This document shows positions 2,285 to 15,718 of a DNA stretch of 24,956 bases, in pieces. The notes under the pieces are model-generated. The model was not told where the DNA came from, searched no databases, and saw nothing but the letters and a program-made list of their open reading frames with translations. The stretch is from IMG/VR virus record IMGVR_UViG_3300024264_000162, positions 1 to 24,956 of that record; one strand, 5' to 3'. Each line of letters opens with the position of its first letter. Position 1 is the first letter of the stretch. The position numbers and the translations under genes were made by a program. Source of the DNA: a virus.

Positions 2285-2300
2285 TTGGGACAGTTTGAGA

Positions 2301-2343
2301 AGTGTCACACTGACCCTTACAGGGTCTTTTTTTATTGTATAAT
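2301..2343 (+). promoter_or_regulatory. promoter module A: AGTGTCACA + stem-loop + TATAAT
   Basis: The upstream element AGTGTCACA (2301-2309) lies 37 nt before the -10 TATAAT (2338-2343), with the terminator stem-loop between them. There is no good -35 hexamer at normal spacing. Same layout as the modules at 4093, 4599, 7630 and 12187-15718. It drives the methyltransferase-like gene whose ATG is at 2363. Confidence 0.7.
2312..2333 (+). terminator. rho-independent terminator after cp12
   Basis: GACCC (2312-2316), loop TTACA, GGGTC (2322-2326), then seven T residues (2327-2333). This is a textbook intrinsic terminator 28 nt after the cp12 stop. It is also the stem-loop part of the promoter that follows: the -10 TATAAT starts only 4 nt after the T-run, so termination of one unit and initiation of the next share the same 43 bases. 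Confidence 0.9.
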
Positions 2344-2362
2344 TGTAGAAAGAAATTTTGTA

Positions 2363-3736
2363 ATGTCTAACGCACTGGTTGATGTAATTCGTGAGAATGA
2401 ACCTTTTTATTCTGATGTGACTATGACTGAGAAAAAGAATCGAATCTATTGTCACCAATTTGAAAGTTGGATTGAACTAATTGCTCTTGGTTTGAGGGAC
2501 TTTTGTTTTTATATTGGTCAAACTGAAGCAGGTAGGGGATGGAAGGTTGTAGGTGAAAAACTGATTCGATTTTATGATGGTGATTATTCCAAATGTCCAG
2601 ACAAACCTAAACTTTATCGTTATTGGGATGTGCATCCAGATCTTAAAGACCATGAGATTAGGGAAGTTATGCGAAAATATGGTTTTATTAAAAATCCTTA
2701 TGGTGGATCTCCAGAGCTAGTATCTAATGCTAATATTAAGGATCTTGACACAGCACTCTTTATTCTTGGTAATGAGATTCAGAAATTGAATGATTATTAC
2801 TATAACTTTGAGAAGATGTTTGGCATTAGTCCTAGCATAGAGCAGAAGAAGGCAAAGAAACGTGAGGAGGATATGTTTCGCATCCCACAACGTTTTGCAG
2901 TATATGATATGTGCGATCAGTTGCAACATTTGCCGAAAGATGCTATGATTTATATTCCAAAGGATGCTTATGGTCGGTTCTGTGACTACCTTGTTCAGCA
3001 AGGTTTCAGTAACATATATACTGAAAAAGACTATGAGTATTTCTATGGATGTAAAGAACTGTTGGGGAATAAATTTGATGACATCAATCTTATTACCGAA
3101 GAAGAGTTTTTTGATATGAAGAAAAAGTTTGATGTAGTTATTGGTAACTATCCTTACGGTAATGGTGGTAATCTTGCTATCGATTTTCTGGCAAAGTCTT
3201 CTGAAACACTGAAAGATGATGGTATGATTCTTCAGATTGTGCCTATTTCTTTGAGAAAGAATGGTAGTCAGAACAAGATTATCAAACGTAATCCATATCT
3301 TGAGTGTGTGAGTGACGTTGACTGTGAGAAGGGCACTTTCCCTGTTGGTATTCATGCTGCTATTCAAGAGTGGCGTATTGGTGATAATCATAGGCAGAAA
3401 ATTGAGATTATTACTAATCACCCAGACTTTGATTTCCTTGATTATAAGGATGTCGTGACTGGTAAAGTGCGGGTAGATCTTGTTATTATTCGATCTGGCA
3501 ATGCTGGTAGAATGATTAGGTCTGAGTTTGAAAAGTATCTGCCTAAGAAAGGTGAACAACTTGATCATTTCTTTATACAGGCAAAGAATGAAAATGTAGT
3601 AGAAACTTTGATATCATTGGAGGAAGAACTTGTTAGAATTGGCGCAAACACAAATGGAAGAAACCACGTCTCAAAAGGTGAAATCATCGAAGAATACCAA
3701 AAACAAACACAATCAGGAGGTGGGATCTTCGATTGA
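2363..3736 (+). CDS. adenine-methyltransferase-like protein, motif IV part (NYPY)
   Basis: 457 aa from ATG 2363. I chose this start because the upstream in-frame codons run through the terminator and promoter. Residues 256-266 read FDVVIGNYPYG, the catalytic motif IV of N6-adenine methyltransferases with Tyr replacing the first Pro of NPPY. The following KDDGMILQIVPISLR (284-298) fits the next core strands, and 300-420 may be a target-recognition region. A degenerate motif-I-like stretch (MIYIPKDAYGRFCDYL, 195-210) precedes the catalytic motif but lacks the usual glycines. The C-terminus overlaps the next gene, which has a perfect motif I. The two could form one enzyme; alternatively this is an Eco57I/EcoRI-type methylase with a diverged cofactor site. 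Confidence 0.7.
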   Translation: MSNALVDVIRENEPFYSDVTMTEKKNRIYCHQFESWIELIALGLRDFCFYIGQTEAGRGWKVVGEKLIRFYDGDYSKCPDKPKLYRYWDVHPDLKDHEIREVMRKYGFIKNPYGGSPELVSNANIKDLDTALFILGNEIQKLNDYYYNFEKMFGISPSIEQKKAKKREEDMFRIPQRFAVYDMCDQLQHLPKDAMIYIPKDAYGRFCDYLVQQGFSNIYTEKDYEYFYGCKELLGNKFDDINLITEEEFFDMKKKFDVVIGNYPYGNGGNLAIDFLAKSSETLKDDGMILQIVPISLRKNGSQNKIIKRNPYLECVSDVDCEKGTFPVGIHAAIQEWRIGDNHRQKIEIITNHPDFDFLDYKDVVTGKVRVDLVIIRSGNAGRMIRSEFEKYLPKKGEQLDHFFIQAKNENVVETLISLEEELVRIGANTNGRNHVSKGEIIEEYQKQTQSGGGIFD

Positions 3737-4094
3737 GAGATCTGATGAACGCATCAAAGTTACTCAAGAAGTATTCACACCGATTGAAGTATGTCGTCAA
3801 ATGGTAAATAGTCTGCCAGAAGAAAGACTGAAGAACCCAGAGTCTACATTTCTTGATAATTCTGCTGGTTCTGGTAATTTTATGATTGCTCTGCGTGATA
3901 AACTGATTGAATATCACGATCATGATCACATCATCAACAACATGCTCTATGCCGTTGAGCTTATGGAAGACAATCATGCTGAAATGTGTCAACGTCTGGG
4001 GGTATCTGTCGATCACCCGCACTACATTTGCTACGATGCTCTAAAATATGATTACAGTTTCGGTGAAGCACAGGGAGTAGAACAGTTCTTTTAG
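3654..4094 (+). CDS. N6-adenine methyltransferase, cofactor-binding half
   Basis: 146 aa. RIKVTQEVFTPIEVCRQMV (33-51) is motif X, FLDNSAGSGNF (67-76) is motif I for S-adenosylmethionine, VELMEDN (101-107) is motif II and ICYDALKYDYSF (125-136) is the motif III region. The protein ends before any catalytic NPPY motif. It overlaps the upstream gene by 83 nt in another frame. ATG 3654 is the first plausible start; GTG 3720 just after AGGAGG is an alternative that would trim a polar Lys/Asn-rich leader. Similar short N-6 methylase proteins occur in marine T4-like phages. Its partner for catalysis is probably the upstream protein. Confidence 0.75.
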   Translation: MEETTSQKVKSSKNTKNKHNQEVGSSIERSDERIKVTQEVFTPIEVCRQMVNSLPEERLKNPESTFLDNSAGSGNFMIALRDKLIEYHDHDHIINNMLYAVELMEDNHAEMCQRLGVSVDHPHYICYDALKYDYSFGEAQGVEQFF

Positions 4095-4136
4095 TGGCAC
4101 ACAGCATCTTGAAACCCTCTTAGGATGCTCTATAAT
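4093..4136 (+). promoter_or_regulatory. promoter module B
   Basis: AGTGGCACA (4093-4101), stem AGCATCTTGA/TTAGGATGCT (4103-4112 / 4120-4129; two wobble pairs, loop AACCCTC), then TATAAT at 4131-4136. TTGAAA inside the left arm could serve as a -35 with a 16-nt spacer. The leader continues GTAATCAAGCAAAGG before ATG 4162. Starts directly at the stop of the preceding gene. Confidence 0.75.
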
Positions 4137-4161
4137 ATAGAGGTAATCAAGCAAAGGCACC

Positions 4162-4584
4162 ATGGGCACCCGCAGCAGAATTGGCATCCAACTTCAAGAT
4201 GAGAGCATCGTTTCTGTCTACTGCCATTATGATGGTTATCCTGCGTTCAATGGTCGTGTCCTGCGTGACAACTATGATACCGTTGAGAAAGTAAAAGAAC
4301 TGATTGACGGTGGTAATATGTCCTGCACCTGGACTAATGTCGGTTGGGGTAAAGAAACTCTGCCTGAGACTGGTGCTCTATATTATACTTCCCGTGGCGA
4401 ATCTCTTGAAGATAACGCACCACGTATCGATAGAGATATGGAAGAGTTTTTCTCTGATGGTGAAGAATACTCCTATATCTTCCGTAATGGTAACTGGTTT
4501 GCCTATGACATGCATCAGTTTGAAGATATGGTAGCACCAGAACCTGTGGAAATCCCTGCTGGAGAATTGGCAGTGGGGTGGTAA
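4162..4584 (+). CDS. conserved cyanophage protein, MGTRSRIGIQL family
   Basis: 140 aa. Opens MGTRSRIGIQLQDESIVSVY and continues CHYDGYPAFNGRVL, an N-terminus I recall as widely conserved in T4-like cyanophages and other marine phages, without a known activity. The middle is rich in aromatic and Gly residues (WTNVGWG, YYTSRGES), followed by an acidic segment and IFRNGNWFAYDM. No signal peptide or membrane segment. It has its own promoter (module B) and is followed directly by module C, so it is probably a monocistronic early gene. Confidence 0.85.
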   Translation: MGTRSRIGIQLQDESIVSVYCHYDGYPAFNGRVLRDNYDTVEKVKELIDGGNMSCTWTNVGWGKETLPETGALYYTSRGESLEDNAPRIDRDMEEFFSDGEEYSYIFRNGNWFAYDMHQFEDMVAPEPVEIPAGELAVGW

Positions 4585-4598
4585 GTTACAGTCTAAGA

Positions 4599-4642
4599 AG
4601 TGTCACACAGCACCCTGAAACCCTCTCAGGATGCTCTATAAT
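4599..4642 (+). promoter_or_regulatory. promoter module C
   Basis: AGTGTCACA (4599-4607), stem-loop AGCACCCTGA/TCAGGATGCT with loop AACCCTC, TATAAT at 4637-4642. Spacing from element to -10 is 38 nt, as in B and F. Compared with module F, one stem position changes T-G to C-G, so pairing is kept. Drives the gene at 4666. Confidence 0.78.
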
Positions 4643-4665
4643 ACATTCATACAAGGGAAACCACC

Positions 4666-5037
4666 ATGACTGCCACCTTCACCGACTACGTTGCTCAGAA
4701 AGATGCTCAGAACCTCATTCAACTGAATATCACTAAGTATAGTATGATGCTTTGTGATGCACTGCAACAGTCTCATCAACGTCAGTATCCAAATAGTGGT
4801 CGCAACTATTCTTATGCACTGATTTCAGGTCGTAAGTATCACAAAGTGATGCAGTGTATAGATGGTCAGACTGAATCAGTTCATGCCTTTATTGATAAGA
4901 AGACTGGTTCCGTATACAAAGCAGCATCAATCAAAGCACCTGCTAAGGGTGAGAGATATAATCTCTTATTGATCAAAGATCGTGAATGGTTATTTGAAAA
5001 TGCTGATTTTTGCGGATCGTATCTTTATGTTCGCTGA
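4666..5037 (+). CDS. conserved marine-phage protein (123 aa)
   Basis: Starts MTATFTDYVAQKDAQNLIQL. The core reads GRKYHKVMQ...SVHAFIDKKTGSVYKAASIKAPAKGERYNLL, a motif I recall from many marine podo- and myoviruses (VHAFVDKxTGxVYKPASWKAPAKGVRYNLL), also of unknown function. The C-terminus DFCGSYLYVR is also typical. First gene of a run of overlapping small genes (4666-5879) under promoter module C. Confidence 0.85.
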   Translation: MTATFTDYVAQKDAQNLIQLNITKYSMMLCDALQQSHQRQYPNSGRNYSYALISGRKYHKVMQCIDGQTESVHAFIDKKTGSVYKAASIKAPAKGERYNLLLIKDREWLFENADFCGSYLYVR

Positions 5038-5039
5038 TT

Positions 5040-5240
5040 ATGGATTACACCAAAGCACAACTGGTTGATGCACTTGTGGCAGAGTGGGACTATCTCTGCC
5101 ATGATGATTATGACCCAGAAGATCTAACATCGGAAGAATATCGTAAGGAGATGGAAGAACTTACAATCGAACAATTGATTGAAGAAACATCAACTGACGA
5201 AATTTACACTCTTGACGAATTTATGGAGAATTGGGTATGA
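5040..5240 (+). CDS. small acidic phage protein (66 aa)
   Basis: Starts MDYTKAQLVDALVAEWDYLC. About one third of the residues are Asp or Glu, mostly in helices (EEYRKEMEELTIEQLIEE). ATG 5040 lies 2 nt after the previous stop; an earlier in-frame ATG at 5010 lies inside the previous gene and is rejected. Function unknown; very acidic small early proteins in phages often bind host DNA-binding proteins, but nothing here shows that. Confidence 0.75.
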   Translation: MDYTKAQLVDALVAEWDYLCHDDYDPEDLTSEEYRKEMEELTIEQLIEETSTDEIYTLDEFMENWV

Positions 5241-5395
5241 AAGTATCATGTGATCGATGGATTGTCTCATGGAAACGTGAGAAGAAAAATGGTTACACTT
5301 CAACTCAGGAGGTTGTAGTTTATGGAATTGAAAATGTCAAGCACGTCATTGACACAATGGTTCCGAATGATGAATGGAGTGTAAAACCGGCATGA
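5237..5395 (+). CDS. small phage protein (52 aa)
   Basis: Starts MKVSCDRWIVSWKREKKNGY; overlaps the previous stop (ATGA). A beta-rich pattern (WIVSWKREKK..STQEVVVYGIENVKHVIDTM) followed by NDEWSVKPA. No recognised family. Confidence 0.65.
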   Translation: MKVSCDRWIVSWKREKKNGYTSTQEVVVYGIENVKHVIDTMVPNDEWSVKPA

Positions 5396-5535
5396 CATCT
5401 AAAGAAAAACTTTTATTCATCTCATCTTTCATTGTCTTTATGAACTGGGGAACCAGATTATGCATTCTACTATTTTCCATTCAGGATACGGTTATTCTAA
5501 GATCATCTGTGAGGATGTTACCTCTTGGTTTTTGA
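5392..5535 (+). CDS. possible small membrane protein (47 aa), weak call
   Basis: Starts MTSKEKLLFISSFIVFMNWG; ATGA overlap with the previous gene. Residues 7-29 are hydrophobic enough for one membrane span. It overlaps the start of the next gene by 76 nt in another frame, so either only the first half matters or the frame is fortuitous. Two other small membrane peptides in the window (7885, 16091) are placed the same way. Confidence 0.35.
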   Translation: MTSKEKLLFISSFIVFMNWGTRLCILLFSIQDTVILRSSVRMLPLGF

Positions 5536-5879
5536 ATGAATACTTTCCACGACATAAAATTGATGTGGATATTATTCATAAAGGACTGAAACGTGATGGT
5601 GTTGTTGGGTATTGTGATGTGATCGGTGGATATTATCGACCAAGGCATTTTCTGATTGAACTTCAGGCACGTATGTCTGAGGAAATGTATATAAAAACTC
5701 TTTTTCATGAACTGACCCATCTGGCACAGTGGGTAGGTGGTTCTCTGCGGTTTCATCATGGAAAAATGTGTTATTCTCAAGAACCGGTCGAAAATTATGA
5801 TTATTGGGATCAACCACATGAAATTGAGGCACGGGAGGAAGAAGTAAGGCTATATGATCGGTGGTTAAATGAGAAATAG
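5460..5879 (+). CDS. zincin-like metallopeptidase domain protein (HELTH)
   Basis: 139 aa. LFHELTHLAQW (81-91) has the HExxH zinc motif with His83, Glu84 and His87, and the later PHEIEAREEE (119-128) supplies a plausible third ligand Glu, the arrangement of small SprT/minigluzincin-like peptidases. Before the motif, RPRHFLIELQARMSEEMYIKT fits the strand and helix leading into the active site. No signal peptide, so it would act in the cytoplasm, cleaving an unknown substrate. Only the motif supports enzyme activity. The gene ends directly at promoter module D. Confidence 0.75.
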   Translation: MHSTIFHSGYGYSKIICEDVTSWFLNEYFPRHKIDVDIIHKGLKRDGVVGYCDVIGGYYRPRHFLIELQARMSEEMYIKTLFHELTHLAQWVGGSLRFHHGKMCYSQEPVENYDYWDQPHEIEAREEEVRLYDRWLNEK

Positions 5880-5881
5880 AG

Positions 5882-5940
5882 TGTGCCAGTTGATTGAACT
5901 GTCCACTGACCTCCACAGGGTTTCCTGACCCTGCTATAAT
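5882..5940 (+). promoter_or_regulatory. promoter module D
   Basis: TATAAT at 5935-5940, directly preceded by a perfect 6-bp stem CAGGGT/ACCCTG. ACTGTCCACTGACC (from 5898) occupies the place of the AGTGTCACA element, 37 nt upstream of the -10. The leader is ACAAAGTAATCAAGGGAAC. The first 18 bases from 5882 (TGTGCCAGTTGATTGAAC) are identical to 7286-7303, where they are the end of the Dam-like gene. Confidence 0.72.
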
Positions 5941-5965
5941 AACAAAGTAATCAAGGGAACGACTC

Positions 5966-6148
5966 ATGACCACCTTCGACTTTGAAACCGAGTACCACTG
6001 GGGTGCTCTCATGGTCAAACTGGTTCCCATGTTTGCCATGGATGTTTACAAAGCATCCGATGATGAGTTAGTATGGGTCTTTGATGTGAACAACCCCAAA
6101 GATGGTTATCATGTCCCTGCTCGCAATCTTTCTACTTATTCTTATTGA
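5966..6148 (+). CDS. small phage protein (60 aa)
   Basis: Starts MTTFDFETEYHWGALMVKLV. Beta-type pattern with DDELVWVFDVNNPKDGYHVPARNLS, resembling a small SH3-like or dUTPase-size fold but not assignable. First gene after promoter D and directly upstream of the MutH-like gene, with which it is probably co-transcribed (stop 6146-6148, next ATG 6151). Confidence 0.75.
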   Translation: MTTFDFETEYHWGALMVKLVPMFAMDVYKASDDELVWVFDVNNPKDGYHVPARNLSTYSY

Positions 6149-6150
6149 TT

Positions 6151-6795
6151 ATGTCTAGGATTAAAAAAGCAATCAAAAAAGTTTCTAAAGCAGAAGGATT
6201 CCAAAAACTTGGTGTCGAAGAGGTTGAAAACAAACTTAACACTTTTGATTACTCTCAACTTCCCAAACCTGGCAAGAATAAAGGTGATCGTGGGCAACTC
6301 TTTGAGACTGCTTTGGGTATTCCAAACGGTTCTGATTTGACTGACTTGATTGATGGTGAACTAAAGTCTTTTACTAAAGGTGAGACAATTAAAGTCACCA
6401 TGCTAAAGCACTGTCTTGACGAAATTGCTTCTAGCGTTGAATTTTATGATAGTAAAGTTTATCAGAAGTTAAAACAAACTATTTACGTTGGTTTTGATCG
6501 TGGTGGAAAGTTTCTTAAATCAAAAACTATCAATGAACAAAACGATTTTGATCATTATCAACAATTGGCAGAAGATTTTGGTTATATTGCAGTAAATGTA
6601 AAAAAAGCAATCGTTAATAAAGAAACTCTTCATACTATCACTGGACCTAACGGATTACTGCAAATACGTACAAACGCATCTAAGAATAAAAAGACTGGAA
6701 AATACACACCACTGTGCTATAATGGTGTTGAGTTGAAAGACAAATATATGGCATTCTATCTCCTTGCAGACTTCGGAAAATCAATTACAAAATGA
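6151..6795 (+). CDS. MutH/Sau3AI-family DNA endonuclease
   Basis: 214 aa. NKGDRGQLFETALG (43-56) followed by SDLTDLIDGELKSF (61-74) reproduces the MutH/Sau3AI active site: Glu52 in GQLFE, an Asp among the DLTDLID residues, and Glu70-x-Lys72 in GELK, the metal-binding set of this restriction-endonuclease fold. The later LLQIRTNASKN (169-179) and MAFYLLADF near the C-terminus match conserved family features. Known members cut at GATC and are controlled by adenine or cytosine methylation. ATG 6151 is preferred to a TTG at 6145. The stop overlaps the ATG of a Dam-type methylase, suggesting the pair works together: nicking or cutting unmodified host or rival DNA while phage DNA is protected. The substrate site is inference. 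Confidence 0.78.
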   Translation: MSRIKKAIKKVSKAEGFQKLGVEEVENKLNTFDYSQLPKPGKNKGDRGQLFETALGIPNGSDLTDLIDGELKSFTKGETIKVTMLKHCLDEIASSVEFYDSKVYQKLKQTIYVGFDRGGKFLKSKTINEQNDFDHYQQLAEDFGYIAVNVKKAIVNKETLHTITGPNGLLQIRTNASKNKKTGKYTPLCYNGVELKDKYMAFYLLADFGKSITK

Positions 6796-7301
6796 CATCA
6801 AACACACTTCAAGTTCTAACAGCAAGCACAGGTAATCGTAAAGATACGTGGAATACTCCTGCGGAATTTGTGGGTGATGTTATTAAGTTTTTTGATGGAC
6901 AGATTGATACTGACCCGTGTTGTAATGATGTAAACAATCCAAACGTGCCTGCCAAAGTTCTTTATACTGAAGAAACGGATGGTTTAAAACATCCATGGTT
7001 TGGTAAAGTTTTTGTGAATCATCCATATTCTGCTAGTAAAAAATGGATTCCCTATGCTGCTGCCCAGTATGAAAATGGAAATGCGAAAGAAATGGTTCTT
7101 CTCATTAAGTTGGACGTTTCTACCAAATGGTGGAGATCTATCACCAAATATCCATGGATAGGAGTCAATAGACGGTTAAGATTCGGTGCTGCCAAAAGTG
7201 CAGCACCATTTCAGTCTGCTATCATATACCTTGGGACTGATCTTGACCGATTTAAACATGCTTTTGGTAAGTACGGTCAATTGTATGTGCCAGTTGATTG
7301 A
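6792..7301 (+). CDS. dam: phage Dam-type DNA N6-adenine methyltransferase
   Basis: 169 aa. DTWNTPAEFVGDVIKFF (18-34), then DTDPCCND (39-46), LYTEETDGLKHPWFGKVFVNHPYS (57-80): the pattern of the phage N-6-adenine methyltransferase family (DxWxTP, DxDPC, DGL.xPW, NPPY). The catalytic motif reads NHPY (76-79) rather than NPPY. It would transfer a methyl group from S-adenosylmethionine to adenine, commonly in GATC for this family. ATGA overlap with the MutH-like nuclease gene gives tight co-translation. The last codons (VPVD, stop) are part of an 18-bp sequence repeated in the non-coding promoter D, so the regulatory module E begins inside this gene. Confidence 0.85.
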   Translation: MTSNTLQVLTASTGNRKDTWNTPAEFVGDVIKFFDGQIDTDPCCNDVNNPNVPAKVLYTEETDGLKHPWFGKVFVNHPYSASKKWIPYAAAQYENGNAKEMVLLIKLDVSTKWWRSITKYPWIGVNRRLRFGAAKSAAPFQSAIIYLGTDLDRFKHAFGKYGQLYVPVD

Positions 7302-7345
7302 ACCGTCCACCAACCGACCACAGAGCAGGGCAGACCTGCTATAAT
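7286..7345 (+). promoter_or_regulatory. promoter module E, starting inside the dam-like gene
   Basis: Stem AGCAGG/CCTGCT with loop GCAGA leads straight into TATAAT at 7340-7345, and the leader ACAAAGTAATCAAGGGAAC is the same as in D. The block ACCGTCCACCAACC sits 38 nt before the -10. Between the conserved ends of D and E the stem sequences differ but pairing is kept. Confidence 0.72.
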
Positions 7346-7374
7346 TACAAAGTAATCAAGGGAACACCACTCAC

Positions 7375-7629
7375 ATGCAACTCACTGCCAAGCACGGAAA
7401 CATGGTTGTTGACTTCTATCCGGTGAAGTATGCTGATAATACGATCAGTGAGCGTCTGATGTATAAGACCGTCACATTCAGTAATGACATGCAATCCAAG
7501 TCTTACATCAACAAAGAATCATTTGAGAAAGAGGTTAATAATCGTGTTGAGGGTTATGGTTATGAAGTAACTGATTTACATGTTGAACCACAACTGTTCA
7601 ATTCAGCACTGATTCAGACCAGATGGTGA
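7375..7629 (+). CDS. small phage protein (84 aa)
   Basis: Starts MQLTAKHGNMVVDFYPVKYA. Alternating hydrophobic pattern (VTFSNDMQSKSYINKESFEKEV, then GYEVTDLHVEPQLFNSALIQTRW) suggests a small alpha/beta protein. Expressed from module E and closed by module F one nucleotide after its stop. No function recognised. Confidence 0.78.
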   Translation: MQLTAKHGNMVVDFYPVKYADNTISERLMYKTVTFSNDMQSKSYINKESFEKEVNNRVEGYGYEVTDLHVEPQLFNSALIQTRW

Positions 7630-7673
7630 AGTGTCACAGAGCATCTTGAAACCCGCTCAGGATGCTCTATAAT
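7630..7673 (+). promoter_or_regulatory. promoter module F
   Basis: AGTGTCACA (7630-7638), stem AGCATCTTGA/TCAGGATGCT (10 bp, one wobble, loop AACCCGC), TATAAT at 7668-7673, spacing 38 nt. TTGAAA could act as a -35 with a 16-nt spacer. It begins directly after the preceding stop and heads the gene train 7708-9797, in which I find no further copy until module H. Confidence 0.78.
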
Positions 7674-7707
7674 AAGCACATACCAAACAAAGCAACCGGA
7701 CAACCCC

Positions 7708-9120: not shown

Positions 9121-9121
9121 T

Positions 9122-9552: not shown

Positions 9553-9797
9553 GTTATGTACCAAAGGTGAATGATTATGTAAGATGGAATCATCATGGTG
9601 TCATTCATCAAGGATGGGTTTATTTTGTTGATAGTTTGTACATTACGATTGAGACAGGAGTAAAACCAAAACCAAACTGTGAGTATACCCGTGAGGAGAA
9701 ACATAAGTATATTCATACTTTGTTATTGTGTTATCCGCATCAATGGAAGGATCTTACTTATGTAAAGAGTCGAAAGAGTATCTATGAGACAGATTAA
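9549..9797 (+). CDS. conserved cyanophage protein (82 aa)
   Basis: Starts MSYVPKVNDYVRWNHHGVIH. The pattern DYVRW...GWVYFVDSLYITIETGVKPKPNCEYT...KHKYIHTLLLCYPHQWKDLTYVKSR is one I recall from cyanophages: a small beta-barrel-like protein of unknown function. Last gene of the train that begins at promoter F; promoter module H follows the stop directly. Confidence 0.8.
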   Translation: MSYVPKVNDYVRWNHHGVIHQGWVYFVDSLYITIETGVKPKPNCEYTREEKHKYIHTLLLCYPHQWKDLTYVKSRKSIYETD

Positions 9798-9798
9798 G

Positions 9799-9842
9799 AA
9801 CTGACCACTGAACCCCCACAGGGCACACAGATGCCTTATACT
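9799..9842 (+). promoter_or_regulatory. promoter module H
   Basis: ACTGACCACTGAACCC (from 9800) replaces the upstream element and lies 37 nt before TATACT (9837-9842). AGGGCA/TGCCTT with loop CACAGA forms a 6-bp stem ending at the -10, as in modules D and E. Recognising this promoter moves the start of the pentapeptide gene to ATG 9870, because ATG 9831 would lie upstream of the transcript start. Confidence 0.6.
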
Positions 9843-9869
9843 CATTATATACCAAACCAGGATTACCAA

Positions 9870-10349
9870 ATGATAGTCAACGGATACGAAATCAAACCAG
9901 GAGATATTCTTGAGGGTGCTGACCTTAAGGGTGCTATTCTTGAGGGAGCTGATCTAAGTTATGCTGATCTAAGTTATGCTGACCTAAGAGGTGCTATTCT
10001 TGAGGGTGCTGACCTTAAGGGTGCTATTCTTGAGGGTGCTGACCTTAAGGATGCTGACCTTCGAGGTGTTGACCTAAGACGTGCTAATCTTAAGGGTGCT
10101 AATCTTGAGGGTACTAAACTTAAGGGTGCTAATCTTGAGGGTACTAAACTTAAGGGTGCTAATCTTGAGGGTGCCAAACTTAGGAATGCTGACCTTCGAG
10201 GTGTTGACCTAAGACGTGCTAATCTTAAGGGTGCTAATCTTGAGGGTGCTAATCTTTGGAATGTTAACCTTAAGGGTGCTTATCTTAAGGATGCTAATCT
10301 TAAGGGTGCTAATCTTGATGGAACTATTTTAGAAGGACTTAACCTATGA
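9870..10349 (+). CDS. pentapeptide-repeat protein
   Basis: 159 aa. After [19 protein letters not shown] the protein is a continuous run of pentapeptide repeats of the A(D/N)LxG type to the C-terminus (about 28 repeats), which fold into a right-handed quadrilateral beta-helix, a shape that in some family members mimics DNA. At DNA level the repeats are nearly identical 15- and 30-bp units (CTTAAGGGTGCTAATCTTG and variants), so copy number probably changes by slippage or recombination. ATG 9870 is chosen over ATG 9831 because of promoter H and because the same 5' sequence recurs at 10346 starting with ATG. No membrane segment. The role is unknown; gyrase inhibition by some family members is a possibility only. 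Confidence 0.85.
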
Positions 10350-10526: not shown

Positions 10527-10538
10527 GTAATGGGTAAT

Positions 10539-11357
10539 TTATTGATCTCTAAACCAATAATATCCTTTATAAGAGTTGCGACGGGGATTTTTAAGAGAAA
10601 GTCTGATAGATGCTTCACTACTAACCTTACCACAAGCCCGTGCTGCTTCTTTTATACTATCAAATACTTGTGTCTTAACCCATGTTCTTTTATTGATACC
10701 ATATACAGGAATAGATCTTTTAGATTGTTCTAATCTTTTCCATAAGTGTCCATAACACTTATAACCTTTATCCATAGCACGAACAATATTACCAGACTTT
10801 TTTCTATCACCAGTAAGTTCTATTGCTGCCGAACTTATACTGTCCCATTCTATCTCTTCTCCTGTTTCTATATTCACACTCATTATCCGTGTTGCAAGGT
10901 GTTTACCATCACCCCTATTCTCTGCTAAGTGAAACCCCCATTTATCATTATTATCTAACTTATCTTTTAATCCATTACTGATATTATTACACCATTCATC
11001 TGATCTTTCTATATCAGACATTATATCGGATAACTTTTCTTTTGTTTCATTACTGTAAGTAGGAGTATTACCACCTGATGTTGCATTATATCCTTCTACA
11101 TTATTAAATGTATTGTATTCCTTAATGTAGTGTATTTCTCTTTCATCTAATTCATTTTCATTACAATCACATATTTCTTTAATCATAAAGTTATGATTAC
11201 CATGCTTACGCATAGCACGATGTAATGGATATGGACTCATTCTTTTTGCTTCATCAATGTGTTGCTTCCATCTCTTATTCATTCCTTGAGTTGTTTGACC
11301 CACATACTTATGTCCATTGACCTTGTTAATGATGAGATAGATTGTTCCTTGCTTCAT
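10539..11357 (-). CDS. GIY-YIG homing endonuclease with IENR1/NUMOD1-type repeats
   Basis: 272 aa read on the minus strand; ATG at 11357. GTIYLI and KYVGQT (4-22) are the GIY-YIG signature, followed by the Arg helix (MNKRWKQHIDEA), the catalytic Glu in ELDEREIHYIKEY and Asn in GYNATSGG. The C-terminal part carries two DNA-binding repeats: IMSVNIETGEEIEWDSIS...GHLWKR and IPVYGINKRTWVKTQVFDSIKEAA...GYYWF, typical NUMOD1/IENR1 units. It is one of only two endonucleases here and the only clear minus-strand gene. A TATAAATA late-type promoter precedes it, so it would be expressed late while its neighbours are early. It probably inserted between early genes; its target may be the empty junction near 10530/11400. 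Confidence 0.92.
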   Translation of the reverse strand: MKQGTIYLIINKVNGHKYVGQTTQGMNKRWKQHIDEAKRMSPYPLHRAMRKHGNHNFMIKEICDCNENELDEREIHYIKEYNTFNNVEGYNATSGGNTPTYSNETKEKLSDIMSDIERSDEWCNNISNGLKDKLDNNDKWGFHLAENRGDGKHLATRIMSVNIETGEEIEWDSISSAAIELTGDRKKSGNIVRAMDKGYKCYGHLWKRLEQSKRSIPVYGINKRTWVKTQVFDSIKEAARACGKVSSEASIRLSLKNPRRNSYKGYYWFRDQ

Positions 11358-11379
11358 TTTGAGATAGAATGCATATTAA

Positions 11380-11387
11380 TATTTATA
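11380..11387 (-). promoter_or_regulatory. T4-type late promoter for the minus-strand endonuclease
   Basis: The minus strand reads CTATAAATATTAATATGC, with TATAAATA at 11387-11380, 22 nt before the endonuclease ATG. This is the -10-like late promoter used by the T4-type late sigma factor gp55. It is separate from the early modules in this region. Confidence 0.65.
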
Positions 11388-11607
11388 GGATACTATTGTT
11401 AAATGATAGAAAACAATGCAAATAGAGAATCTAAAATTAATTATAAATAAATCCCTTATAAACCCCAGATCTTATGCAACCTTTATCGACAGGCTATCAC
11501 ACTCAGAGCATTTTGTCAAGACCCCCCACATAAAAACTCTGAGACCCACACATTTTTTCTCGTCGAGACTTATAAATAATGCTTATGAATACCGCACGAG
11601 ATCATAC

Positions 11608-11636
11608 TTGACATACGTGCGAGATGTCTGTATAAT
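11608..11636 (+). promoter_or_regulatory. consensus sigma-70 promoter
   Basis: TTGACA (11608-11613), exactly 17 nt, TATAAT (11631-11636): a perfect match to the bacterial housekeeping consensus, the only one of this kind in the window. It does not use the AGTGKCACA architecture of the other early promoters. It directs transcription into the ACGAGA-rich region and the small gene at 11669, and predicts strong immediate-early expression by host RNA polymerase. Confidence 0.85.
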
Positions 11637-11668
11637 ATACAAGTAACATACAAATCTCGACGAGACCC

Positions 11669-11872
11669 ATGTATTACGAAGACCACGAGTTACAGTATCA
11701 TTATAACAACGAGTCTTATACGTATTATAAAGACGAGATGTGTGAGCATTATGCACGAGATACATATACACTACGAGATACACATAACACCCAGGATACA
11801 TACGAGATAGATGATGAGTACGCACGAGATACATGTGATTACGTAGAGCTTGCGTATAAACATTACGCATAA
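11669..11872 (+). CDS. Tyr/His/Asp-rich small protein within the ACGAGA array
   Basis: 67 aa, starts MYYEDHELQYHYNNESYTYY. About a third of residues are Tyr, His or Asp, with ARDTY, LRDTH and ARDTC repeated where the DNA repeats fall in frame. The perfect sigma-70 promoter with a 33-nt leader supports expression. Against it, no recognisable fold is visible, no clear ribosome-binding site is present, and the composition follows the DNA repeat. It could be a real disordered peptide or a frame that survives by chance. Confidence 0.4.
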   Translation: MYYEDHELQYHYNNESYTYYKDEMCEHYARDTYTLRDTHNTQDTYEIDDEYARDTCDYVELAYKHYA

Positions 11873-11947
11873 CATACGAGATACACATATACATTACGAG
11901 ATATGTGTACACATAACACATTATAACACACATCACACGAGATACAC

Positions 11948-12100
11948 ATGTACGCACACAAACGCATCATAAGTGTTACATTAGACATCGAGTGTTATGA
12001 TGATTTAAATCTTAAAGATATTGATTGGAATGATATCTTAGGACTGGAAGGTGACGAGAATGTTGATATTAGCATCAGAGAGACCGCAGACGTGTATTAG
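11948..12100 (+). CDS. small acidic phage protein (50 aa)
   Basis: Starts MYAHKRIISVTLDIECYDDL and continues DIDWNDILGLEGDENVDISI, a beta-alpha-beta pattern with a conserved-looking DIDWxDxLGLEGDE core that I recall in small cyanophage proteins. Its first bases lie in the last ACGAGATACACATG repeat. Its stop TAG is the first three bases of the long inverted repeat that follows. Confidence 0.65.
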   Translation: MYAHKRIISVTLDIECYDDLNLKDIDWNDILGLEGDENVDISIRETADVY

Positions 12101-12198
12101 TGTGCCACTTCCCCGACTGGCACAAGAGGGCATTAGAAGACCTTATAAGACCCATAGAGAGACCTTATGAGTGTGACAGTCGGGGAAGTGGCACACTA
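12098..12198. repeat. 22-bp perfect inverted repeat (long stem-loop)
   Basis: The arms at 12098-12119 and 12177-12198 are exact inverted copies (core GTGCCACTTCCCCGACTG). One mismatch further in, CACA/TGTG adds four more pairs. The loop (about 47 nt) contains a near-duplicate AGACCTTATAAG / AGACCTTATGAG. The right arm contains AGTGGCACA, the upstream element of the following promoter; the left arm is the same element reversed. It would fold into the strongest hairpin of the window, either as a terminator without a T-run or as DNA with two opposed element copies. Confidence 0.85.
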
Positions 12199-12229
12199 GA
12201 TGGTCACAGACCTCAAAATCGTGTATTGT
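12187..12229 (+). promoter_or_regulatory. promoter module G1
   Basis: AGTGGCACA (12187-12195) is 37 nt before TATTGT (12224-12229). ACAGACCTCAAAATCGTG precedes the -10 and the leader is AGTTAAGTCATCAGGAATTC, both shared with G2 and G3. The element lies in the right arm of the long inverted repeat. It drives the gene at 12259. Confidence 0.72.
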
Positions 12230-12258
12230 AGTTAAGTCATCAGGAATTCATCCCAAAA

Positions 12259-12426: not shown

Positions 12427-12437
12427 CACTAACTGTG

Positions 12438-12454
12438 GTATCACTAAATGATAC
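12438..12454 (+). repeat. GTATCA hairpin at the module start (copy 1)
   Basis: GGTATCACTAAATGATACC (12437-12455) folds into a 7-bp stem with a CTAAA loop. Other copies are at 14420-14438 and 15627-15645, where the outer pair is A-T instead of G-C, a compensating change. No T-run follows. At 15035-15051 the left part is replaced by GGGGAG/CTCCCC, keeping a hairpin at the same place. Confidence 0.65.
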
Positions 12455-12481
12455 CCAGGTCAGCTGCCTCCCAATCGGTAA

Positions 12482-12524
12482 AGTGTCACAAGGTCACGGC
12501 ACAGACCTCAAAATCGTGTATTGT
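12482..12524 (+). promoter_or_regulatory. promoter module G2
   Basis: AGTGTCACA (12482-12490), stem AGGTC/GACCT, TATTGT at 12519-12524; spacing 37 nt. Leader AGTTAAGTCATCAGGAATTC. The gene starts at ATG 12550. The module is open in the reading frame of the gene, so an automatic start could wrongly be set at 12448. Confidence 0.75.
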
Positions 12525-12549
12525 AGTTAAGTCATCAGGAATTCATCAA

Positions 12550-12768
12550 ATGAGTATGTTCAATGTCCGGGACGAAGCAATTGGTAGGTTAGCATCAGGT
12601 TTCGTAAAAGAGTTTGCTGAGTTTGCTGCAGGAGATGAGAGAATGCATGAGTTAATGATGGATCTTGCCTCAGAGTTTGTTGAGACTAATCTTCCAATTG
12701 TAAAGGAAGATGATTCTATCGATGTTGCTCATGAGTTAATGATGGGCATCACGATTCGTACTGTGTGA
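12550..12768 (+). CDS. small acidic phage protein (72 aa)
   Basis: Starts MSMFNVRDEAIGRLASGFVK. Helical and acidic (EFAEFAAGDERMHELMMDLASEFVE), with HELMM occurring twice. I place the start at 12550, downstream of the TATTGT promoter; upstream in-frame codons merely translate the regulatory repeat. Unknown function. Confidence 0.75.
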   Translation: MSMFNVRDEAIGRLASGFVKEFAEFAAGDERMHELMMDLASEFVETNLPIVKEDDSIDVAHELMMGITIRTV

Positions 12769-12778
12769 CAGTCAAGGA

Positions 12779-12821
12779 ACTATCACAAGGTTCCGGCACA
12801 GACCTCAAAATCGTGTATTGT
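12779..12821 (+). promoter_or_regulatory. promoter module G3
   Basis: ACTATCACA (12779-12787) occupies the element position, 37 nt before TATTGT (12816-12821). AGGTT...GACCT still pairs through a T-G wobble. The leader is identical to G1 and G2. It begins about 11 nt after the previous stop. Confidence 0.7.
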
Positions 12822-12846
12822 AGTTAAGTCATCAGGAATTCACCAA

Positions 12847-13086: not shown

Positions 13087-13128
13087 GTAACACTTACTCA
13101 ACTCACACTAACTAACACTTTTTTTCAA

Positions 13129-13278
13129 ATGGATTACGACACTTTCGACACCGACATTTTCTCTGAGATTAATGATATGCCCGGTGAGATTTATGATGTG
13201 ATTGATTATAAAGAAGAGGGAGAAGATGATAAGAAGTTTGATGTAGAAGGTTACATTAACGGCAAACTAGATTACTAA
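13129..13278 (+). CDS. small very acidic protein (49 aa)
   Basis: Starts MDYDTFDTDIFSEINDMPGE; 20 of 49 residues are Asp or Glu. It follows a TTTTTTTCAA stretch and lacks its own module, so it is probably read through from G3. Ends in the AAGTAACACT tail. Unknown function. Confidence 0.6.
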   Translation: MDYDTFDTDIFSEINDMPGEIYDVIDYKEEGEDDKKFDVEGYINGKLDY

Positions 13279-13334
13279 GTAACACTCACTCACCTCCAAT
13301 TGACCCCTATAGTGTAACCACACACAGGCAACAC

Positions 13335-13772
13335 ATGAAATTTCAACTTAAGGTCAAACTTACCAAAAACGGTAAAACTTTTGCTAAAGGTAGTATTGTA
13401 ACAGAGGATCAAGTCTCTCGTTATGGTATCAACCAGGCATATCTTGAAAGTTACACCAAACCACGTAAAACGAAGGAGGTGTTTACATTAGACGAGGAGA
13501 ATCTACTTGTTGATTTGTATCTACAACACGCAGATCCTATCAACAAATCAGATAATCGCAAGTCTATTATTCATGATTATCGCAAGGAGTATGATACACA
13601 TTCAGACAATAGTTTGGAGATCTTTATCAATTCAATCAAACGAATTGATTTAGACTATCTTGCAGAAGGTATGGCACCTAATCGTAAGTTAGTCAAAAAG
13701 TTATCTGTTATCTATCCTGATAGGTTTATGACTTTAGATCAACTTGATTTGACTTTATCATTCAAGGATTGA
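13335..13772 (+). CDS. phage protein of unknown function (145 aa)
   Basis: Starts MKFQLKVKLTKNGKTFAKGS. The N-terminal 40 residues look like a beta domain with GSIVTEDQVSRYGINQAYLES. After KPRKTKEVFTLDEENLLVDLYL comes a helical part (SLEIFINSIKRIDLDYLAEGM) ending ...LDQLDLTLSFKD. The layout suggests a small DNA- or protein-binding helical domain fused to a beta module. A weak hairpin follows at 13781-13799. Confidence 0.78.
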   Translation: MKFQLKVKLTKNGKTFAKGSIVTEDQVSRYGINQAYLESYTKPRKTKEVFTLDEENLLVDLYLQHADPINKSDNRKSIIHDYRKEYDTHSDNSLEIFINSIKRIDLDYLAEGMAPNRKLVKKLSVIYPDRFMTLDQLDLTLSFKD

Positions 13773-13780
13773 TAACATGT

Positions 13781-13799
13781 AGGGGGATTACAACCCCCT
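13781..13799 (+). terminator. possible terminator hairpin
   Basis: AGGGGG (13781-13786), loop ATTACAA, CCCCCT (13794-13799). A strong 6-bp GC stem, but the following sequence GTATTATTG has no clean T-run, so efficiency is doubtful. It ends the 13335-13772 gene. Confidence 0.55.
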
Positions 13800-13832
13800 G
13801 TATTATTGTGACTCACCTCATTATCTAACATC

Positions 13833-14000
13833 ATGCTCAAAGGACAAGTTTTAAAAATCGTTGGTGAAACTGCAAGAGACGTTGATCCTAACATGACAAG
13901 ATTGGAGAAGTTTGAAGTATTTTGCCGTGTATGTGATGGATTACTTAAAGATGGTAGAATTAGTTCTGCTAAACATCATGCATGGACAAACCCTTTTTAA
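13833..14000 (+). CDS. small phage protein (55 aa)
   Basis: Starts MLKGQVLKIVGETARDVDPN and ends SSAKHHAWTNPF. Helical with FEVFCRVCDGLLKDGRI. No module of its own upstream. The region after it carries a conserved AAGTAACAC tail at 14018. Confidence 0.65.
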   Translation: MLKGQVLKIVGETARDVDPNMTRLEKFEVFCRVCDGLLKDGRISSAKHHAWTNPF

Positions 14001-14059
14001 CACTTAAGAAAAACACTAAGTAACACAAACCGGTCGGCCGCGAGTGGACAGTTGGTCAA

Positions 14060-14102
14060 AGTGGCACAAGGTCACGGCACAGACCTCAAAATAGTGTATT
14101 AT
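14060..14102 (+). promoter_or_regulatory. promoter module G4
   Basis: AGTGGCACA (14060-14068), AGGTC/GACCT stem, TATTAT at 14097-14102; spacing 37 nt. Preceded by the conserved block GGTCGGCCGCGAGTGGACAG. The leader AGAGTCAAAGGAATTTACC is a variant of the G5 leader. ATAGTG replaces ATCGTG before the -10. Confidence 0.72.
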
Positions 14103-14136
14103 TAAAGAGTCAAAGGAATTTACCAAAGGAACAACA

Positions 14137-14409
14137 ATGACTTCAGTTTATCTAGTTTTTGAAATCCAGTATGAAAGCGATGATTATGAAAGCTTTGAAA
14201 TTCCTATGCTGGACTCAGACCATACTAAGACTTTCCTTACGTTAAAGGATGCGGAGGATTACCTTGAAGAGATGAAGGTTAAGGAAATGCCTCGTCTTTT
14301 AGAACTTGCAAAGAAGTGGGAATACAAAAAAACTACTTATGATGAGTTGAATGATAGGTTTGGCGTAGAGCATGAGTTGGAGATCAAAGAATTAGTTCTC
14401 ACTAAGTAA
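14137..14409 (+). CDS. acidic phage protein (90 aa)
   Basis: Starts MTSVYLVFEIQYESDDYESF. Begins with a strand-rich part (VYLVFEIQYESDDYESFEIPM) followed by a long charged helix (LKDAEDYLEEMKVKEMPRLLELAKKWEYKK). The stop lies in the AAGTAACACT tail. Driven by G4. Function unknown. Confidence 0.75.
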   Translation: MTSVYLVFEIQYESDDYESFEIPMLDSDHTKTFLTLKDAEDYLEEMKVKEMPRLLELAKKWEYKKTTYDELNDRFGVEHELEIKELVLTK

Positions 14410-14468
14410 CACTCACTGTAGTATCACTAAATGATACTCAGGTCAGCCGCGAGTGGACAGTCGGACAA

Positions 14469-14511
14469 AGTGGCACAAGGTCACGGCACAGACCTCAAAA
14501 TCGTGTATTGT
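14469..14511 (+). promoter_or_regulatory. promoter module G5
   Basis: AGTGGCACA (14469-14477), AGGTC/GACCT stem, TATTGT (14506-14511), spacing 37 nt, leader AGAAGGGTCAAAGAAATTC. Preceded by the hairpin AGTATCACTAAATGATACT (14420-14438) and CAGGTCAGCCGCGAGTGGAC: the most complete copy of the module. Confidence 0.78.
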
Positions 14512-14539
14512 AGAAGGGTCAAAGAAATTCACCTCTCAA

Positions 14540-14818
14540 ATGCCACAATTCTCCAAAGCATACAACATCGAAGGTCAAATGATTATTCGTGATAATGAGA
14601 CTGGCAAGACAGCATTATCACTAATGGAAGACCCTAATTTCAAATCAGCAATGGGGGGTTTGTATAATTTTGTGGGTGAAATGGATGCTGATTTAGATAT
14701 GGCATACGATTGGATTGTTGAACAGGTAGAAGGTTGCAATTCTTTCGTGCATGATATATGGGCATGGGATTGTTTCTATGAAGTTTATGGTAAAGTTGCT
14801 CTAGAGCACATTATGTAA
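14540..14818 (+). CDS. acidic phage protein (92 aa)
   Basis: Starts MPQFSKAYNIEGQMIIRDNE. Contains GLYNFVGEMDADLDMAYDWIVEQVEGCNSFVHDIWAWDCFYEVYG: helical, acidic and aromatic-rich. The start at 14540 follows the shared leader; the longer frame from 14453 only reads the regulatory repeat. Unknown function. Confidence 0.75.
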   Translation: MPQFSKAYNIEGQMIIRDNETGKTALSLMEDPNFKSAMGGLYNFVGEMDADLDMAYDWIVEQVEGCNSFVHDIWAWDCFYEVYGKVALEHIM

Positions 14819-14854
14819 GTAACACCTACTCATTCACTCACTAACTAACACTTA

Positions 14855-15028
14855 ATGAACATTTCTGGCACTAACTTAAGAATGGCACTTGTAGACCGTA
14901 GAGGTGAACTTATCAGGTGTAGTTCTATTACGAAAGATAATACTTTCGATGAACAGATTGCTACTCTTGATGATATCATCGAACAGATTTGGATGGCAAA
15001 GAATGTAGAACTCACAGTCGTTAATTAA
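14855..15028 (+). CDS. small phage protein (57 aa)
   Basis: Starts MNISGTNLRMALVDRRGELI. Beta hairpin (LRMALVDRRGELIRCSSI) then an acidic helix (FDEQIATLDDIIEQIWMAK) and a terminal strand (VELTVVN). No promoter module directly upstream, so it is likely co-transcribed with the preceding gene. Confidence 0.65.
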   Translation: MNISGTNLRMALVDRRGELIRCSSITKDNTFDEQIATLDDIIEQIWMAKNVELTVVN

Positions 15029-15034
15029 CACTTA

Positions 15035-15051
15035 GGGGAGGCAATCTCCCC
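15035..15051 (+). terminator. GGGGAG hairpin replacing the module hairpin
   Basis: GGGGAG (15035-15040), loop GCAAT, CTCCCC (15046-15051), then ACTAAATGATACTCAGG, which is the right part of the usual GTATCA hairpin. A different, stronger stem has replaced the left arm. No T-run follows. Confidence 0.55.
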
Positions 15052-15093
15052 ACTAAATGATACTCAGGTCAGCCGCGAGTAGACAATCGGATA

Positions 15094-15136
15094 GGTGTCA
15101 CAAGGTTCCGGCACAGACCTCAAAATCATGTATTGT
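15094..15136 (+). promoter_or_regulatory. promoter module G6
   Basis: GGTGTCACA (15094-15102), AGGTT...GACCT wobble stem, TATTGT (15131-15136), spacing 37 nt. Unlike other copies it reads ATCATG instead of ATCGTG before the -10, which creates an in-frame ATG at 15128. Leader AGAAGGGTCAAAGAA. Confidence 0.72.
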
Positions 15137-15151
15137 AGAAGGGTCAAAGAA

Positions 15152-15322
15152 ACGAGTTCAATTTTGCTTTACACTGTTCACTGTCCAGCACTTAACGAAA
15201 CTGAGAATTGCTCCTCTCAGGATCATGCAATCGATGTTGCTTATTCGATGTATAGTGAGTCTAATTCCACTGTCTGGGTTGAAGATTACCTCGGACATAC
15301 TGTTATCGAATTGGGAGACTGA
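15152..15322 (+). CDS. small acidic phage protein with no ATG start (56 aa)
   Basis: From ACG 15152 the protein reads (M)SSILLYTVHCPALNETENCS and continues DHAIDVAYSMYSESNSTVWVEDYLGHTVIELGD. The leader of G5 would place an ATG near here, but the codon at the expected position is ACG, and no ATG follows until SMYSE. The in-frame ATGs at 15095 and 15128 lie at or upstream of the -10 hexamer. Either ACG (or the later TTG) is used, or the gene is a start-codon mutant, or translation depends on read-through transcripts using 15128. Confidence 0.55.
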   Translation, partial: TSSILLYTVHCPALNETENCSSQDHAIDVAYSMYSESNSTVWVEDYLGHTVIELGD

Positions 15323-15361
15323 TTTACTCACTGTTTAACACTTTCTTTCTTCATTAACATC

Positions 15362-15616
15362 ATGGCAAATCAGTTCTATTCACTCAAAGCACTCAAAGCA
15401 AGGGTAGAAAATCTTATCGAACAACAGGGAGAAGATGCACCTTGTTCGGCATGGATTTACACTAGCGAAGATGTTGTAAAGTATGATGATAATGGAGATG
15501 AGGTACAACAAACTGATGAAATCTGTGAGACAGTGTTAATCAACTTACAAGACTACGATTTCATCTATCAGGCAATTGGTGATGCTATTGATACAGAACT
15601 CGGTGAGGTTAAGTAA
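15362..15616 (+). CDS. acidic phage protein (84 aa)
   Basis: Starts MANQFYSLKALKARVENLIE. Helix then CSAWIYTSEDVVKYDDNGDEVQQTDEICETVLINLQDYDFIYQAIGDAID, an alternating strand/helix pattern. The stop is in the AAGTAACACT tail. No module directly upstream. Unknown function. Confidence 0.72.
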   Translation: MANQFYSLKALKARVENLIEQQGEDAPCSAWIYTSEDVVKYDDNGDEVQQTDEICETVLINLQDYDFIYQAIGDAIDTELGEVK

Positions 15617-15675
15617 CACTAACTGTAGTATCACTAAATGATACTCAGGTCGGCCGCGAGTAGACAGTTGGACAA

Positions 15676-15718
15676 AGTGGCACAAGCACACGGCACAGAC
15701 CTCAAAATCGTGTATTGT
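15676..15718 (+). promoter_or_regulatory. promoter module G7
   Basis: AGTGGCACA (15676-15684), TATTGT (15713-15718), spacing 37 nt. The stem position AGCAC no longer pairs well with GACCT, and the leader after the -10 differs (AGAAGTGGAGGGGACAGC). Preceded by the hairpin copy at 15627-15645 and GGTCGGCCGCGAG. Last copy of the series. Confidence 0.72.

Follow-up and report, generated by a model that had tools for sequence, protein, structure and literature searches.

A dyad at a fixed distance from the -10 element in promoters of T4-like cyanophages

The middle promoters of phage T4 that depend on MotA and AsiA keep a -10 element and have a poor -35, with a MotA box near -30 that is bound upstream. 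Here we consider a different promoter layout, found in a stretch of 24,956 nucleotides (nt) of viral DNA (IMG/VR virus record IMGVR_UViG_3300024264_000162, positions 1 to 24,956; the whole stretch is called the window below), in which an element, AGTGKCACA or a close variant, stands at a fixed distance upstream of a -10 hexamer in fourteen modules. In 2016, Doron et al. (ISME J) reportedly described a novel regulatory element of early genes in Syn9, conserved among T4-like cyanophages, together with host-like promoters for middle genes. Arbiol (2010) and Comeau (2014) are said to have described the PeSL cassettes of T4-type phages, a promoter plus an early stem-loop lying between the small genes of hyperplastic regions and serving as shuffling points. 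One passage on these cassettes notes that their density in S-PM2 is unlike that in other T4-like phages (PMC4503421). Cyanomyoviruses lack motA and asi, and a passage of a 2010 review calls their mechanism of early and middle transcription unclear (PMC2984593); elsewhere, Doron et al. and Thompson et al. are cited in passing for the absence of T4-like middle promoters in T4-like cyanophages (PMC5780444). Part of a further paper reports searches for sigma-70, T4 late, Pho and NtcA promoters, with the consensus GTA-N8-TAC for NtcA and CTTA-N7-CTTA for Pho (PMC3037559).

The promoter design of the window is real and widely conserved, and the original prediction, made from the letters of the window, noted it correctly but saw half of it: the element is one half of a dyad. 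The accompanying view that no such design had been described in cyanophages is doubtful, given the early element attributed to Doron et al., and the promoter class probably overlaps with one already reported. If that account of the work is right, the dyad is probably the Syn9 early element itself, an identity put forward as a lead; what is added here is the dyad symmetry, the spacing statistics, tests of host genomes and of co-variation, and the link to shuffling. Among the matches listed in a literature search, the titles, abstract openings and passages contained no description of this dyad.

Fourteen modules and their dyad

All fourteen predicted modules are present in the window where they had been placed, and the predicted distance of 37-38 nt between element and -10 stands. 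Named by the position at which the element begins, ten modules have a distance of 37 nt (2301, 5898, 9800, 12187, 12482, 12779, 14060, 14469, 15094 and 15676) and four a distance of 38 nt (4093, 4599, 7302 and 7630). An imperfect dyad of 22-24 base pairs (bp), GTGnCAGTT-N4-AACTGnCAC, contains AGTGKCACA as its right half, and the centre of the dyad lies about 41 nt before the -10, that is, at about -53. The left half-site reads CAGT in ten modules and has a one-base variant, CAGA or CAAT, in 7630, 9800, 12482 and 15094; it precedes the right half by 6 nt in nine modules and by 7 nt in five. A strict search for ASTGKCAC gave ten matches on the + strand of the window, of which nine have TATWRT 37-38 nt away; none of the six matches on the - strand has it so placed. 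In 300 Markov shuffles of the window the mean was 1.06 elements, and 0.007 with a correctly placed -10 (maximum 1). The modules fall into clear sequence subfamilies, evidently copied, one of which has TATTGT as its -10 where TATAAT is otherwise typical. The nearest named phage searched is Synechococcus phage S-SKS1, with 39% of the window query covered at 95.7% identity. The modules are as follows.

2287..2350, + strand: dyad 2287-2308, terminator-like hairpin GACCCTTACAGGGTC plus T7 in the spacer, -10 TATAAT at 2338, predicted start about 2350; matching site in S-SKS1 at 161387-161438, - strand
4079..4143, + strand: dyad 4079-4100, stem-loop spacer, TTGAAA-16-TATAAT, -10 at 4131, predicted start about 4143
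4585..4649, + strand: dyad 4585-4606, stem-loop spacer, -10 TATAAT at 4637, predicted start about 4649
5883..5947, + strand: near-perfect dyad GTGCCAGTTGATTGAACTGTCCAC at 5883-5906, half-site gap 7, stem-loop, -10 TATAAT at 5935
7287..7352, + strand: dyad 7287-7310, gap 7, stem-loop, -10 TATAAT at 7340
7616..7680, + strand: dyad 7616-7637, left half CAGA, stem-loop of -15.4 kcal/mol, TTGAAA-16-TATAAT, -10 at 7668
9786..9849, + strand: dyad 9786-9808, left half CAGA, weak stem, -10 TATACT at 9837
12173..12236, + strand: dyad 12173-12194, -10 TATTGT at 12224
12468..12531, + strand: dyad 12468-12489, degenerate left half CAAT, -10 TATTGT at 12519
12765..12828, + strand: dyad 12765-12786, -10 TATTGT at 12816
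14044..14109, + strand: dyad 14044-14067, gap 7, -10 TATTAT at 14097
14453..14518, + strand: dyad 14453-14476, gap 7, -10 TATTGT at 14506; break of synteny with S-SKS1 here
15079..15143, + strand: dyad 15079-15101, left half CAAT, -10 TATTGT at 15131; nearby cassette order unlike that of S-SKS1
15660..15725, + strand: dyad 15660-15683, gap 7, -10 TATTGT at 15713

The DNA between element and -10 had been predicted usually to enclose a stem-loop. This holds for the six copies from 2301 to 7630, whose 30-nt spacers fold at -7.9 to -15.4 kcal/mol, and weakly for the 9800 copy (-5.9); the seven copies from 12187 to 15676 fold weakly (-1.9 to -6.2). The spacers of a larger thinned set outdo their flanks in folding: -8 kcal/mol or better is reached by 75 of 203 spacers, by 5 of 203 upstream stretches and by 1 of 203 downstream. 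A coupling to termination of the preceding transcript, likewise proposed, fits a minority (32 of 203 spacers resemble intrinsic terminators) and not the majority. In three of the modules at 12-15 kb, a hairpin around GTATCACTAAATGATAC (12437-12455, 14420-14438 and 15627-15645) also stands between the dyad and the gene upstream of it, and may represent the 3' terminus of the upstream transcript. At 12103-12122 and 12174-12193 two dyads lie in inverted orientation with about 50 bp between them and together make a long inverted repeat that is almost perfect; S-SKS1 has a similar inverted pair at 150585 and 150656.

Conservation and spacing across cyanomyoviruses

The dyad at its fixed spacing recurs in all nine cyanomyovirus genomes examined. 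A dyad matrix was built from 189 thinned IMG/VR dyads, the training loci including pieces of the records G001 and G002. At a score of at least 14 bits it gave 16 strand-hits in S-SKS1, 11 in Syn9, 24 in S-PM2, 15 in S-RSM4, 24 in P-SSM2, 17 in P-SSM4, 33 in S-SSM7, 40 in S-CRM01 and 24 in G002, counted by strand so that a near-palindrome may appear twice; one Markov shuffle per genome gave 0-5. The same matrix had no matches in T4, in Ma-LMM01 or in 40 of the 45 kb of P-SSP7. The zero count in Ma-LMM01 agrees with one passage of PMC5780444, which reports no phage-specific motif in this phage. As a guard against circularity, 40 training-like matches were dropped along with G002, S-SKS1 and the window, leaving 124 strand-hits in seven genomes. 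In 42 of these TANNNT stands at offset 48, whereas other offsets average 2.7; widening the range to offsets 47-49 takes in 55. In Syn9, dyads of 14.4-23.1 bits with TANNNT at offset 47-48 lie at 44779, 48563, 51005, 53001 and 127497.

Searches for the dyad with up to three mismatches point the same way: dyads outnumber the reversed control in each of the nine cyanomyoviruses, whereas T4, KVP40 and Ma-LMM01 fall below their controls and P-SSP7 has 3 against 2. The strict dyad with TATAAT at 15-45 nt is found in 8 of 15 records, including P-SSM2, P-SSM4, S-SSM7 and S-SKS1; two of the four P-SSM4 matches are off-distance, as is the only match in S-CRM01. This strict search found nothing in T4, KVP40, P-SSP7 or Ma-LMM01, nor in Syn9, S-PM2 or S-RSM4. 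In the freshwater phage S-CRM01 many dyads are followed, at the same offset, by a -10 zone of unusual sequence, for example GTTATGCTAGC or GTTAGAAT.

Two scans of IMG/VR permitted a half-site gap of 3-9 and a distance of 16-48 nt from the right half to TATAAT. Among the 175 and 124 unique matches listed by the two scans, the start of the right half lies 37-39 nt ahead of TATAAT in 143 and 89, and the half-site gap is 6 in 161 and 101. An open reading frame (ORF) similar to one of a cyanomyovirus is carried by 163 of the 164 IMG/VR loci with a spaced site, and by 39 of the 54 without one.

For the composition of the promoters we aligned 563 sites, thinned to less than 75% identity, on the -10; TANNNT and the offsets of 47-49 were imposed on this set by the search pattern, so that it is no evidence for the spacing. 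These sites show TATAATA at the -10, a spacer with almost no information, and a start signature of Y at -1 (70%), R at +1 (80%) and T at +2 (65%), with +1 lying 12 nt after the first base of the -10. A weak -35 is also present: 183 of 563 match TTGACA at four or more positions, against 64 in shuffles. The predicted divergence of the spacer at a constant distance to the -10 is borne out in the window, among the IMG/VR matches listed and in the named genomes. The constant distance could in principle merely reflect the copying of a few ancestral modules, as the evidently copied subfamilies of the window might suggest. We consider this most improbable: the spacing is kept in the unselected dyad matches of seven genomes, which are unlike the training sites, and the spacer is almost free of information in the thinned set.

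Complementarity between the halves of the dyad was examined at their variable S positions: of 379 thinned sites, 185 are complementary there (201.9 expected), and of 43 sites from complete genomes, 15 (21.5 expected); the latter are the cleaner test, since most IMG/VR sites come from loci gathered with the left CAGT fixed. No Rfam family matched the window at its gathering score. A reading of the dyad as an RNA hairpin or cruciform was therefore set aside as unsupported, the halves showing no consistent co-variation (apart from one outer pair in the full set) and Rfam being silent on the window. A protein site is favoured over a hairpin because the halves show no consistent base-pair co-variation, and two half-sites spaced by roughly one turn of the helix, each varying largely without regard to the other, would suit a protein dimer.

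Downstream genes and cassette shuffling

The predicted starts lie just before genes. In five annotated stretches of P-SSM2, S-SSM7 and S-PM2 (+ strand, with matches lacking TANNNT at offset 47-50 dropped), 26 of 36 predicted starts fall 0-60 nt before an annotated gene, 23 of the 26 at 13-24 nt, as against 6-20% of random places. Corresponding places in different genera carry sites: a dyad site precedes the peptidase gene in S-SSM7, S-RSM4 and Syn9, and another precedes cobS in S-SSM7, S-PM2 and P-SSM2; downstream of cobS, S-PM2 and P-SSM2 continue with the replication block of gp45, gp44, gp62, regA and gp43. Further sites head cassettes of small genes of unknown function. Within the window, by eye, a pentapeptide-repeat-like protein (9870-10349) lies directly downstream of the 9800 module, two ORFs resemble GIY-YIG homing endonucleases (516-1097, +, and 10539-11357, -), and many repeats of a CGAGATACACAT-like unit occur with short ORFs at 11540-11960.

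Breaks of synteny cluster at the modules. The window and S-SKS1, the one phage pair compared, share 14 matches of at least 300 bp, a limit chosen after the match list had been viewed. Module zones cover 9.7% of the window and hold 12 of the 26 inner ends of these matches (p about 2e-6 on the assumption of independent ends, which does not apply to neighbouring ones). Two cassettes, at 14538-15138 and 15051-15358, stand in opposite order in S-SKS1.

In these respects the modules resemble the PeSL cassettes: they occur in many copies among the small genes of variable regions in the cyanophages examined, and breakpoints and reordered cassettes coincide with them in the pair compared. A PeSL is a composite of a sigma-70-like promoter and a stem-loop between genes; the cyanophage sites have the -10 and a weak -35, with a strong stem in 75 of 203 and a terminator-like spacer in 32 of 203. 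The cyanophage modules differ in adding a dyad at a fixed distance, in the weakness of the -35 and in having terminators only in a minority.

Could the modules then be recombination cassettes or RNA-level elements that happen to carry an ordinary sigma-70 promoter, with a dyad that has no protein partner? The clustering of breaks, the hairpins in the spacers and the excess of complementarity at the outer pair in the full set would all be in keeping with this. We nonetheless regard it as very unlikely, because the dyad halves lack consistent co-variation, the distance to the -10 is fixed across unrelated spacers, and sites also occur before core genes.

The factor that may read the dyad

The interpretation we favour, and consider fairly probable, is that the modules are sigma-70 promoters helped by a dimeric activator at the dyad, which would be phage-encoded or borne in the virion. 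Each module would serve as a promoter for host RNA polymerase with a sigma-70-type factor, made up of a -10 (TATAAT or TATTGT), a -35 that is weak or missing and, centred around -53, a symmetric site. On that site a dimeric protein would sit beside the polymerase and aid it. The spacing of dyad to -10 is kept to about one base whilst the intervening DNA drifts. In some copies the spacer may double as the hairpin or terminator of the preceding gene, and modules that stand between small-gene cassettes and before the cobS and peptidase genes may serve also as joints for cassette shuffling. The original prediction of a factor bound on a fixed helical face is well supported by the held spacing, the diverging spacer, the dyad form and the largely independent halves. 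It had left open whether the factor is encoded by phage or host; no host regulon with the dyad was seen, though a host factor is conceivable.

Such an activator invites comparison with MotA, likewise bound upstream of a promoter that keeps its -10 and has a poor -35. The cyanophage site differs in being a dyad near -53 in place of a single box near -30, and the -35/-30 zone carries little information. The T4 late promoter TATAAATA is matched by none of the 14 window -10s (the wider set, selected for TANNNT, is uninformative here).

As predicted, most copies in the window lack a convincing -35, the exceptions being 4093 and 7630 (TTGAAA, 16-nt spacer) and 4599 (CTGAAA). Several observations weigh against an activator of this kind. 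TTGACA is matched at five or six positions by 56 of the 563 sites, against 8 in shuffles. Of the 2,349 TATAAT boxes in the nine genomes, 56 have a dyad at the right place, and this share rises with the match to the -35 (13 of 841 boxes with two matches, 23 of 828 with three, 11 of 284 with four and 6 of 111 with five); the dyad therefore does not simply replace a missing -35, and these counts make the activator slightly less probable. Boxes with a perfect -35 had a dyad in 0 of 51, where about one was expected. The half-site gap is 7 in five of the 14 window modules; Syn9 is barely above its control at three mismatches (21 against 19); and the outer dyad pair, M with K, is complementary in 209 of the 379 thinned sites against 182.1 expected (Fisher p 0.002), with no excess in complete genomes (12 against 17.2 of 43). 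Among the downstream genes, 10 of the 36 sites have no annotated gene start nearby, the S-PM2 cobS site has an offset of 50, and the Syn9 peptidase site is weak (14.4 bits), with a predicted start 4 nt inside the annotated gene. No factor was identified among 11 distinct small proteins scanned against Pfam or PHROGs. Finally, a newly made phage activator could not serve the very first genes to be transcribed, if these are such.

The behaviour of the -35 might instead suggest that the dyad is the operator of a repressor by which these promoters would be silenced at a later stage of infection. Repressor operators are commonly dyads, a good -35 persists at some sites, and the dyad is if anything commoner with a better one, the 51 perfect ones excepted. 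The dyad is centred near -53, however, outside the usual overlap with the -35 and -10, and a spacing constraint of one base is better suited to contact with the polymerase. We therefore think a repressor unlikely, and infer that the protein would activate.

The alternative to a phage-borne activator is a host DNA-binding protein borrowed by the phage, which would allow the promoters to fire at once, the host's own sites differing in make-up or position. Many sites lie among small hypothetical genes near gp25 or in similar regions, which we take to be early; no phage candidate examined fits all nine genomes with support; and cyanophage promoters of S-PM2d bind host PhoB, according to a passage of PMC10976474. 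Scans of host genomes argue against this. With up to one mismatch, the dyad is not enriched in 117 genomes (1.0-2.5 Mb) of one presumed picocyanobacterial family, where it has 38 matches and the reversed control 48. When required to be exact and to carry TATAAT, the dyad has 28 matches in genome contigs of scattered taxa, none titled marine Synechococcus or Prochlorococcus, and 386 cyanobacterial genomes yielded four, at gaps of 32, 38, 38 and 40 against 29-31 in phages, so that none stands at the phage distance. A host regulon with this dyad is thus unsupported by all three scans, and the borrowing of a host protein appears doubtful, if quite conceivable. Promoters with NtcA or Pho boxes do share an upstream binding site before a sigma-70 -10; GTA-N8-TAC and CTTA-N7-CTTA are unlike the dyad, and membership of an NtcA regulon was not borne out.

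For the phage side, the ORF families of the nine genomes were compared. A weak candidate lies in the window:

17761..17958, + strand: 65-amino-acid AbrB/MazE-like protein (phrog_661), acidic, family in 7 of 9 genomes

The window member of this family, which is absent from S-SSM7 and S-CRM01, matches Pfam MazE below the cut-off (E 0.048). Its structural model appears MazE/AbrB-like, with a predicted local distance difference test score (pLDDT) of 78.5 and a best Foldseek probability of 1.00 at E 0.2; no Foldseek match reached E <= 0.001. A putative helix-turn-helix is visible by eye in phrog_1920, which has no Pfam match and is found in seven of nine genomes, being absent from P-SSM4 and S-SSM7. 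As S-SSM7 has 33 dyad strand-hits without phrog_1920 or phrog_661, neither fits alone. All nine genomes carry phrog_385, annotated 'transcriptional regulator' and with no Pfam match at E 0.1, and eight carry phrog_507, with a helical model (pLDDT 71) and no convincing fold match. At 18926-19078 the window encodes a very basic protein of 50 amino acids (KKTRQGxGKHTKYxATSRN), with family members in eight of nine cyanomyovirus genomes and no Pfam match at E 0.1.

Taking the phage-borne activator as the preferred reading, we would tentatively extend it: the dyad might mark a phage-specific class of activator-dependent promoters across T4-like cyanophages, with a factor that would be unlike MotA and would either come with the virion or be made straight away, and with promoter cassettes that double as recombination joints of the variable gene region. 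This fuller picture is possible rather than probable. One dyad at a fixed distance in nine cyanomyovirus genomes, with no sign of a host regulon, narrows the problem of early and middle control in these phages to which protein reads the dyad. It also gives a sequence-based marker for such promoters in uncultured cyanophages, and the modules offer a possible reason why the small cassettes of the variable region shuffle so easily.

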